DNA of 64,000 bases from contig NZ_CP042912.1 in the NCBI RefSeq assembly GCF_008087665.1, positions 3,906,001-3,970,000 of the forward strand, read 5' to 3'. The notes beneath the pieces were generated by a model. That model ran no database searches, was not told the origin of the DNA, and was given only the letters and a program-made list of their open reading frames with translations. The DNA comes from Mariniblastus fucicola (GTDB lineage: Bacteria > Planctomycetota > Planctomycetia > Pirellulales > Pirellulaceae). The stretch's first letter is position 1, and every line of letters starts with the position of its first letter. This document shows positions 61,253 through 63,941 of this stretch, piece after piece. A program made the translations under genes and the position numbers.

Positions 61253-62641
61253 TCAGGCTTCCAGTGTTTCGAAGACTTTAACCAGCTCAAGATCTTCTGC
61301 TGGCGAAATCGTTCGCGTGTCGAGCAACAGTTTTCCCTGTTGGACGCGGCCCATCACCGCAGGAGTCCCACTTCGCAGCTTGGCCGACAGAGCGTCGACG
61401 GAACCGGCGGGTGTGATCGATACGCACCATGTCGGAATCTTTTGAGCCGGCAAACTTCCGCCACCAAGCATGGCTTCTTCCTGGATCGCTTCGCACGATC
61501 CGACGCAGGGAACTGCCGACAACAAAGACGCCAATTTCTCCGCACGCAGCTTCAAATTTTCCGCCGGCATCGAGAGCATTCGCAATAGTGGAATCGACTG
61601 CTTGGCTTTCTCCTGATCGCGGTAAAGGCTGAGCGTTGCATGCAATGCCGATAGAGTCATTTTGCCAACCCGCATCGCTCTCATGAGAGGATTCTTCAGG
61701 ATGCGATCAACGTACTTTTTCTTTCCAGCAATGATTCCACACTGAGGTCCGCCGATCAGCTTGTCGCCACTGAACAGAATCAGGTCCGCGCCATCGCGAA
61801 TGCTTTCCGACGCAACAGGCTCGTTCCTCAATCCAAACTGGGCGTAGTCCAACAACGCGCCGGAACCGATATCGTCGATCAGCGGAAGATCGTGTTTCGC
61901 TGCGAGTTTTGAAAGCTCTTTTGTGGAAATCGTTTTGGTAAACCCGATGACTTCGAAGTTGCTTGGATGCACCTTCAGCAACGCCCCGGTCAATTCGGGG
62001 TCGATCGCGTTTTCGTAGTCGGCGAGATGAGTCTTGTTTGTCGTGCCGACTTCTTTCAGTTTCGCGCCGCTGCACTCCATGACGTCGGGCAAACGATAGC
62101 TGCCGCCGATTTCGATCAGTTGGCCGCGAGAAACAATGACTTCCTTACCCGCCGCCATCGCGGACAGAGTCAGCATCGTTGCAGCGGCGTTGTTATTGGT
62201 AACAACGGCAGCTTCAGCGCCTGTCAGTTCACAGATCAGACGTTCCACAGCCTTGACACGCTGCCCGCGTTCACCAGTCATCAGGTTGATTTCGACACTG
62301 GCGTAGCTCTTGGAGTTTTCGTTCACCGCTGCCAGAGCCTCGGCGGCCAAAGGTGCTCTGCCGAGTCCCGTATGCAGCACGATGCCGGTTCCATTGATGA
62401 CGCGGCGGAGATACGGTCGCTCTTCGTTGCTTAACCAGTCCGCAATTCTGTCCGCCATCTCTGTCGGCGTCGGGATCGGAACCTCTCCAGCGGCGTCGAC
62501 GACTTGCGTGCGGAGATCATCCAGAAACGTGCGAACACCTTCGGCGACAACGCCATGATTGATGTTCTCGACCATCTTTTTCAGCTGCGGGCTTTCCAAA
62601 AGTTGGCTGACCGAAGGGAGATTGCGAAGGATGTTTGACAT
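61253..62641 (-). CDS. selA: L-seryl-tRNA(Sec) selenium transferase (SelA)
   Basis: This 462-residue PLP enzyme converts seryl-tRNA(Sec) to selenocysteyl-tRNA(Sec) using selenophosphate. The PLP lysine is in LFSGDKLIGGPQCG (Lys294), matching E. coli SelA Lys295; NGTGIVLHTGLGRAPL and VVTNNNAAAT are family hallmarks. It lies about 36 kb from the Sec-encoding fdhA and supports its decoding. selB, selC and selD are not in the window. The ATG at 62641 was chosen; the open frame to 62668 adds only a few residues. Confidence 0.96.
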   Translation of the reverse strand: MSNILRNLPSVSQLLESPQLKKMVENINHGVVAEGVRTFLDDLRTQVVDAAGEVPIPTPTEMADRIADWLSNEERPYLRRVINGTGIVLHTGLGRAPLAAEALAAVNENSKSYASVEINLMTGERGQRVKAVERLICELTGAEAAVVTNNNAAATMLTLSAMAAGKEVIVSRGQLIEIGGSYRLPDVMECSGAKLKEVGTTNKTHLADYENAIDPELTGALLKVHPSNFEVIGFTKTISTKELSKLAAKHDLPLIDDIGSGALLDYAQFGLRNEPVASESIRDGADLILFSGDKLIGGPQCGIIAGKKKYVDRILKNPLMRAMRVGKMTLSALHATLSLYRDQEKAKQSIPLLRMLSMPAENLKLRAEKLASLLSAVPCVGSCEAIQEEAMLGGGSLPAQKIPTWCVSITPAGSVDALSAKLRSGTPAVMGRVQQGKLLLDTRTISPAEDLELVKVFETLEA

Positions 62642-62728
62642 GATTGGCTCTGTTTTGAGTTCGATCAATTCATTGTAGCCGCGGTGCTCCGTCTGCCCAG
62701 AGTGAGGGGTTTGGATCAGTCGACCGCG

Positions 62729-63121
62729 TTACTCTTCCTGTTCGCGTCGCTCACGCTCAAGACCTTCTTCCCGATCTTCGCTAAGCGTTTTCGCAGAAAG
62801 CCGTTTGACTCGTTCGTCCATCTCGGTCCCGGACTTGAAGGTGACCACCTTTTTGGCTGGCAGCATAATCGGTTCGCCGGTGTTTGGGTTCCGACCCTTC
62901 TTGGCCGCCCGATCCTTGATCTCAAAGACACCGAACTTTCGCAGCTCGATCCGGCCATCGCTCACCAGCCCGTCAAGGATCGAGTCGAGCGTTTTCTGGA
63001 CCGCTTCCCGAGCCAGCGTCTGGGGAATATCCAGAGCCTCGGCGACTTCTTTGGCGATTTCTTTTTTCGTCTTCAAACTGCGACCAAAAAATTCGGCTTG
63101 TGTCTTAACTACTGTCGCCAC
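62729..63121 (-). CDS. HU/IHF-family DNA-bending protein with an acidic tail
   Basis: This protein has about 130 residues, with a core of about 90 (TKKEIAKEVAEALDIPQTLA, IELRKFGVFEIKDRAAKKGR, NPNTGEPIMLPAKKVVTFK), then an extra highly charged tail (EDREEGLERERREQEE). No ATG is available near the core. GTG 63121 was chosen, with GTG 63136 the alternative; neither has a clear Shine-Dalgarno. It should bind and bend DNA as a dimer; the tail is not part of standard HU. Confidence 0.88.
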   Translation of the reverse strand: MATVVKTQAEFFGRSLKTKKEIAKEVAEALDIPQTLAREAVQKTLDSILDGLVSDGRIELRKFGVFEIKDRAAKKGRNPNTGEPIMLPAKKVVTFKSGTEMDERVKRLSAKTLSEDREEGLERERREQEE

Positions 63122-63336
63122 CCCCAGCGGACTCACTATAGGATTGCCGTGGTCGATGGTCAACGAAGACAGAACGGATCCGGACACGTTGAAGTTCGGG
63201 AACTTTTTACAAAACCGCAGAAGTCTCACAAACTATTCGCAACCGTTACCAGGAACTGAACCTGCCGGTGAGTGCGACAGCCGTAGCGGGAAAGAAAGAA
63301 TCTGGCGAACGACCATTTTGCCATCGCCTGACGGGC

Positions 63337-63612
63337 TTAAATGTCTTCAGGAGGATCGTAGCTGGGACCAGGATCGTCGTCGCTGCTGTCGTTGTAGGCC
63401 GTCTCAATCTCGTGAGGAATCTTTTTGACGTCTTCCAGTTCCCGATCCAGTTCGGATTTGATCGAAGTCTGGATATCGTTCAGTCCCTTTCGAAACTGAG
63501 TGTACGACTGGCCAACAGAGCGAGCGACCTCTGGAAGTTTGCTACCGAACAACACGACTGCGACGATCGCAATCAGAACTAATTCAGAGGTACCGATTCC
63601 GCCTGGTAACAT
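63337..63612 (-). CDS. TatA/TatB-type twin-arginine translocase subunit
   Basis: This 91-residue protein has an N-terminal membrane helix (ELVLIAIVAVVLFG), the FGSKLPEVARSVG hinge and amphipathic helix, and an acidic Pro-rich tail. It fits TatA/TatB; which of the two is not certain. It starts 4 bases after the stop of the small TatA-like gene, so it is very likely translated from the same transcript. Confidence 0.88.
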   Translation of the reverse strand: MLPGGIGTSELVLIAIVAVVLFGSKLPEVARSVGQSYTQFRKGLNDIQTSIKSELDRELEDVKKIPHEIETAYNDSSDDDPGPSYDPPEDI

Positions 63613-63616
63613 GGGG

Positions 63617-63715
63617 TCAACGCTGGATCTGACAAATGAGTAGATAAACGAAAGCGACTAAACACAGAATTGCCAAAAGAGTGACTTCCGCGAAGCCGAT
63701 GCCGCCGGGAAACAT
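63617..63715 (-). CDS. 32-residue TatA-like microprotein
   Basis: This small open frame has its ATG 1 base after the stop of one tatA and its TGA 4 bases before the start of the next. The peptide MFPGGIGFAEVTLLAILCLV continues AFVYLLICQIQR. Its first half aligns with the TatA opening MLPGGIGTSELVLIAIV, but it lacks the FG hinge and the amphipathic helix. The tight spacing and conserved start argue it is translated. It could be a truncated tatA remnant instead. Confidence 0.6.
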   Translation of the reverse strand: MFPGGIGFAEVTLLAILCLVAFVYLLICQIQR

Positions 63716-63716
63716 G

Positions 63717-63941
63717 CTAGACGTCCGCAGTTTCTTTTTCTTCGACTTTTGACTTTGAATCTGAAGTCGATTCTTCCTCTGAATCCTCTTCGAGCGACTT
63801 TGGTTTCTGAGCCATTCCGGCTTTGAATTCGTTGACGCTTCTGCCCATGTTGCGCATCAGCGAAGGCAGCTTTGCTCCACCGAACAACAGCACGAAAATT
63901 CCAGCGATGAGGGCGACTTCGGCCCAGCCTAAACCAAACAT
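63717..63941 (-). CDS. tatA: TatA-type twin-arginine translocase subunit
   Basis: This 74-residue protein has the TatA layout: membrane helix (WAEVALIAGIFVLLFGG), the FGGAKLPSLMRNMGRSVNEF amphipathic helix and an acidic tail. TatA oligomers form the export channel for folded twin-arginine proteins, such as the SBP56 protein in this window. It is the first gene of the tat cluster (tatA, microprotein, tatA/B-like); tatC is not in the window. Confidence 0.9.
   Translation of the reverse strand: MFGLGWAEVALIAGIFVLLFGGAKLPSLMRNMGRSVNEFKAGMAQKPKSLEEDSEEESTSDSKSKVEEKETADV

Follow-up and report, generated by a model that had tools for sequence, protein, structure and literature searches.

TatE of Escherichia coli is a complete TatA-type protein with an amphipathic helix. 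It acts as an extra TatA-type component beside TatA and TatB and docks at helix 5 of TatC (PMC5777986). A polar cluster of TatC is described as holding a polar transmembrane residue of TatA or TatB (PMC10197872), and the amphipathic helix is described as essential, with TatA F39A dominant negative (PMC13186574). The short TatA helix, together with membrane thinning, has been proposed to drive recruitment (PMC13323110, PMC12609122). It is an open question how Tat lets folded proteins through and yet stays sealed to ions. Current models rest on the short and amphipathic helices of TatA; in a protein with the docking end of TatA and neither of these helices, docking would be uncoupled from the forming of a pore. 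Membrane complexes can have small accessory proteins with a single helix, for example the AcrB-associated small protein, CcmD and CcoQ/CcoS (PMC10903887). Like the protein studied here these are short membrane proteins, and they work beside a larger membrane complex. A TatA-like start is stated there for none of them, and for Tat the paper gives TatAy, which is a whole TatA. Among the matches listed from open-licence PMC, none describes a TatA-like microprotein in its title or at the start of its abstract.

The window (the whole 64,000-nt stretch of Mariniblastus fucicola DNA that was analysed) contains a gene for a microprotein of 32 residues at 63617..63715 on the minus strand. It starts with ATG, and its product, MFPGGIGFAEVTLLAILCLVAFVYLLICQIQR, opens with GIGFAE and ends with QIQR. 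The gene sits between two tatA-type genes on the same strand. The upstream neighbour, tatA1 (63717..63941, minus strand), encodes 74 residues and matches PF02416 with 40.2 bits; the downstream neighbour, tatA2 (63337..63612, minus strand), encodes 91 residues with a longer second helix and scores 44.5 bits. Both lie above the cut-off of 21 bits and they are the only PF02416 matches in the whole host genome (6.57 Mb, a single contig). The best NCBIfam model for tatA1 is TIGR01411 (tatAE) with 49.2 bits, short of the 53.9 set as its cut-off; tatA2 scores 46.8 bits with TIGR01411 and 45.3 bits with TIGR01410 (tatB), again below cut-off. The gap between tatA1 and tatA2 is 104 nt, of which 1 nt (63716..63716, minus strand) separates the tatA1 stop from the microprotein start and 4 nt (63613..63616, minus strand) separate the microprotein stop from the tatA2 start. 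These results confirm the frame, its spacing and the TatA-type nature of both neighbours as given in the first-pass annotation. In Pfam, PF02416 does not match the microprotein at E ≤ 1, the only match being to PufX (E 0.13, 12.3 bits, cut-off 25), and a search of NCBIfam gave no match at E ≤ 1. Solved structures returned only receptor transmembrane segments (E 0.034 and 0.97) and PHROGs a single match (E 0.22), all of which were taken as chance; no near match was found among plasmid records.

In the host genome tatC is remote from the tatA pair, at a distance of around 1.8 Mb. The only copy found (G000:C1:5765812-5767101, outside the window, minus strand of its stretch) encodes 478 residues; its Pfam TatC match is split in two because about 217 residues separate the first helix region from the rest. 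Upstream of tatA1, beyond the end of the window and on the minus strand (L128 1221-6586), lies a gene for a FliG-like protein with FliG_N, M and C all over cut-off. A secretin of 1130 residues is also encoded there, as is a frame whose start resembles a lipobox by eye and which has no match in Pfam. Downstream of tatA2 are an HU-type DNA-binding protein (62729-63229, minus strand; mechanical frame of 166 residues) and a SelA homologue (61253-62668, minus strand).

Two PF02416 matches each were located in 25 of the 28 genomes of the genus; G004, G022 and G024, which are 71-83% complete, gave none and were left out of the genus counts. A microprotein of 30-36 residues, with one helix after a TatA-type opening, occupies the tatA1-tatA2 gap in three of these 25 genomes, namely the host, G015 and G016. 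The G016 copy begins with GTG and has 30 residues, MFSGGIGYSDPVLLIVAVIVLVLLPSFLNR; the G015 copy has 36, MSGIGSYELLIIAAGLVVVGVLAGLFLLVVLFSKRR. The junction with tatA1 is 1 nt in G015 and 6 nt in G016, and that with tatA2 is 4 nt in G016 and a TGATG stop/start overlap in G015. Since the same arrangement recurs in these two further assemblies, an assembly error is unlikely. In a tree built from joined TatA1 and TatA2 cores (the 25 genomes and three outgroups) the three carriers fall together with a split support of 100, and G015 pairs with G016 with a support of 99. The other 22 gaps in the genus (20-145 nt, starts taken mechanically) hold no microprotein. In the wider family, PF02416 matches were found in 56 of 59 genomes from other genera and the microprotein in none of these 56 loci; long mechanical frames overlapping the tat genes were excluded from the gap counts. 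Two of the 56 gaps carry a small hydrophobic TTG frame without the opening (23 residues in G080, 31 in G033), which we take as background. A TatA2 scan of named GTDB genomes gave 28 loci. Two are the same relatives, uncultured Pirellulaceae MAGs (CALLUY and CALFWR); the frame is absent from the other 26, five of which show just one tatA in the stretch. Conservation between the tat genes of relatives, to which the first-pass annotation had looked, therefore holds within the clade of three genomes and does not extend to the rest of the genus or to other genera.

When the host peptide alone was searched against 60 genomes, including G015 and G016, neither copy was recovered at E ≤ 1, and the best foreign matches were TatA N-termini. 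The three copies share 8-12 identities in 27-30 aligned residues. As a single-sequence search misses the copies of the relatives, it is by place and architecture that we group the three.

In all three copies a G-x-G-x-x-E/D opening precedes the helix (GIGFAE in the host, GIGYSD and GIGSYE in the relatives), with an acidic residue (E, D and E) three positions after the second glycine. A GGIG opening is common to the host and G016 copies and their tatA2. The opening, an N-terminal membrane helix and the location of the gene between two family members are shared with TatA, TatB and TatE (PF02416, TIGR01411, TIGR01410). The microprotein differs from these in that it has no FG..LP hinge, no amphipathic helix and no family match, and it is about half the length of E. 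coli TatE; the hinge is also absent from the other frames of the gap. The uncharged span after the opening covers 21 residues in the host, 19 in G016 and 25 in G015. Of 28 tatA1 proteins, 27 have a span of 15 residues; that of G020 was measured wrongly, within an N-terminal extension, and its helix is 15 residues by eye. Among 28 tatA2 proteins the span is 14 residues in 26 and 13 in the other two. The microproteins of all three genomes have one hydrophobic helix, long enough to cross nearly the whole membrane. AlphaFold2 predicts a single helix from residue 8 to 31 for the microprotein (three sequences, mean pLDDT 85.7) and helices 8-23 and 26-76 for tatA2, where confidence is low (mean pLDDT 61); the first helix therefore starts at residue 8 in both models and ends at 31 in one and, with low confidence, at 23 in the other. 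The hydrophobic stretch stops four residues before the C-terminus of the microprotein. The last residue is basic in all three copies, and the net charge of the last eight residues is +3 in G015 and a weak +1 in the host and G016. The microprotein is not TatA minus its tail, as its uncharged span is longer than that of TatA in every copy. By the usual definition it lies outside the TatA family, for the short helix, the hinge with amphipathic helix and the family match are all missing. The proposal, made from the first, of a gene packed into the operon whose product has a TatA-type opening and neither hinge nor amphipathic helix is supported; the accompanying idea that the TatA membrane helix is kept is not, since the span is 19-25 residues against 13-15 in TatA.

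Over a 17-codon segment the three copies are only 41-49% identical in nucleotide sequence, and at this level of identity the borders, the GIG..(E/D) opening, the hydrophobic helix and the basic last residue persist. The host and G016 copies show 31 differences in their first 60 nt. Drift was simulated for this pair only (50,000 runs), over the first 20 codons, ungapped and on the assumption that the frames align. Under uniform drift the observed BLOSUM score was reached in 1 of the 50,000 runs, and score and hydrophobicity together in none; with transition bias, similarity as high as observed arose in 2 of 50,000. The frame stayed free of stops over the 20 codons in 25,324 runs, and almost none of the runs kept the chemistry. 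The pN/pS test is limited by the near saturation of synonymous sites; with this reservation, the three pairs gave 0.48/0.64, 0.55/0.71 and 0.42/0.60 over the whole aligned frame, and 0.51/0.78, 0.52/0.55 and 0.50/0.53 over the 17-codon segment, pN being near pS in two of the three pairs for the segment. In the matched segment of tatA1 and tatA2 pN is 0.19-0.35, against 0.50-0.52 in the microprotein, which evolves about twice as fast as the TatA helix. The drift and pN/pS results together indicate that chemistry and borders have been kept and individual residues hardly so. The substitution pattern, suggested at the outset as a test of the frame, speaks for it in the chemistry that the host and G016 copies have kept against drift, and against it in the two pairs where pN is near pS.

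Taken together, the data make it very probable that the microprotein gene is real and translated. Its role is more tentative. The reading that we prefer, and hold with considerable reserve, is that of a genuine clade-specific small gene of one Pirellulaceae lineage whose product would be a TatA-type, non-productive subunit that tunes Tat. The protein would be co-translated with both TatA-type proteins and inserted with its N-terminus out and its C-terminus in, and it could contact TatA and TatC through the same helix face and the acidic residue. This residue sits at the place of the polar residue held by TatC, consistent with the idea of TatA-like docking. With neither an amphipathic helix nor a short, membrane-thinning helix, the microprotein should be unable to form a pore itself; a subunit that docks and cannot join the pore would be non-productive. 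By taking up docking positions it might tune Tat assembly or the resting, sealed state. An action on Tat as such a subunit is suggested by sequence features and we regard it as possible. Points that weigh against it are the fast evolution of the microprotein, its occurrence in only three genomes, the failure of the single-sequence search to recover the other copies, the existence of similar microproteins with no tat gene in view and the distance to tatC. It would point to Tat control in these bacteria.

A bolder version, in which the microprotein is a new kind of Tat subunit that closes the translocon as a plug or cap between rounds of transport, seems to us unlikely. It would be a decoy, a TatA of which only the docking helix is left: the TatC-docking acidic residue is kept, the amphipathic helix required for the pore is lost, and the full-length membrane helix does not thin the bilayer. 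If this were true, the stand-alone look-alikes described below might likewise regulate TatA or other complexes. Even with no role in Tat, membrane proteins of 30-41 residues that have no Pfam or NCBIfam match (where tested) are easily missed.

The short frame could instead serve translational coupling, carrying ribosomes from tatA1 to tatA2 and setting their ratio, in which case the peptide itself would matter little. The close packing in three genomes, with the TGATG overlap in G015 and the 4-nt spacing in the host and G016, fits this explanation, as does the absence by eye of an obvious Shine-Dalgarno sequence before tatA2 in the window. However, 22 of the 25 loci of the genus manage without the microprotein, and coupling alone requires neither a TatA-like opening nor a hydrophobic helix, both of which persist against drift in the host and G016. 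We therefore consider it rather unlikely, although it fares best among the alternatives to a non-productive subunit.

A further explanation is that a membrane microprotein of Pirellulaceae type has settled in the tat operon without any role in Tat. Its basis is a set of stand-alone look-alikes elsewhere in the family. A profile of the three tat-site peptides, run over 241 family genomes, located a stand-alone frame of 35 residues in G126 (E 0.0055), and a search with the G126 peptide led to look-alikes in G117, G070 and G092. A seven-row profile seeded with the three tat-site peptides and these four then gave, over the same 241 genomes, seven more look-alikes, in G124, G112, G176, G026, G138, G172 and G188 (E 3.4e-5 to 3.0e-3 per genome). 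The tally covers the matches at E ≤ 0.01 apart from that in G143, and a minority of those above this limit; a match in G007 within the limit was rejected as a frame without the opening. Among 392 genomes of the phylum there were seven matches at E ≤ 0.01, of which only the host protein and that of G138 are such microproteins. The look-alikes (34-41 residues) have the GxGxxE opening, single helix and basic K/R tail of the tat-site copies, and differ from them in an uncharged span of 22-26 residues and in having no tat neighbour in view: inspection of 11 neighbourhoods by eye found a tat gene adjoining none (the flanks of L199 and L207 being short), and the only neighbour common among them is the gene upstream in G172 and G176. 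For this same-genus pair pN is 0.12 against a pS of 0.41, and with the common upstream gene this suggests that the look-alike is a real, constrained gene. The G015 copy is the most look-alike-like of the three, its span of 25 residues falling within their range, yet those of the host (21) and G016 (19) are shorter and these two copies carry the GGIG opening of their own tatA2. Moreover, the three-peptide profile ranks several TatA N-termini above G126, and a search with only the G126 peptide gives no match in the host genome (G000), G015 or G016. Short hydrophobic sequences can converge; the profile matches may be convergent and no single family is claimed. On balance we think it unlikely that the microprotein merely settled in the operon.

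Descent from tatA itself was also considered. A partial duplicate of the 5′ end of tatA, on its way to being lost and open by chance, would agree with the fast evolution of the microprotein and with its resemblance to its neighbours: of 17 residues compared, 7 are identical to tatA1 and 8 to tatA2 in the host, 3 and 6 in G016, and 7 and 8 in G015, a slight lean towards an origin from tatA2 that is not decisive. Three clustered tatA-type genes, not two, occur in G035, G066, G103 and G106, all of other genera. Nonetheless, no stop interrupts the frame in any of the three lineages, whose copies have 41-49% of their nucleotides in common, drift rarely keeps the chemistry, and the span exceeds that of TatA in every copy; we judge this explanation to be quite improbable. 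Three tandem full tatA genes were rejected as the source because a half-length middle copy appears in none of the 56 loci of other genera. A frameshifted, decayed tatA, the refutation envisaged by the first-pass annotation, is ruled out in its simple form and only the truncated duplicate just discussed stays a rival. Up to where its amphipathic helix ends, a whole Tat core needs about 45 codons, more than the 104-nt gap can hold, and the hinge is found in no frame of the gap.

Each gap was also shuffled 20,000 times with dinucleotides preserved, and scored for a frame of at least 20 codons lying no more than 12 nt from both borders and, in addition, for a hydrophobic helix (18-residue mean KD ≥ 2.0). 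The G016 gap gave 1,123 such frames, 185 of them with the helix, and the G015 gap 882 and 75. That a non-coding gap should hold this frame by chance is highly improbable, for though the host gap yields a border-to-border frame in 596 of 20,000 shuffles, and hydrophobic TTG frames do turn up in two of 56 other-genus gaps, the helix is present as well in only 8 of the 20,000 and the same arrangement recurs in two relatives.

The searches for stand-alone genes provided some further observations. In G176 (L204) and G172 (L209), around position 1501 of each stretch, the start of the look-alike overlaps the stop of the upstream gene, which encodes 392 residues, so tight packing is seen again. In G189 (L195, match at 1501) a protein of 74 residues begins with an opening and helix like those of TatA and ends in a segment that resembles a zinc ribbon; its best Pfam match is PF12773 (E 1.4e-4, 22.4 bits, below the cut-off of 27.3). 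Several hundred bases downstream of the look-alike in G070 (L198), the end of a mechanical frame of 159 residues is a candidate second single-helix protein, with an internal ATG as its start and KKQG at its C-terminus.
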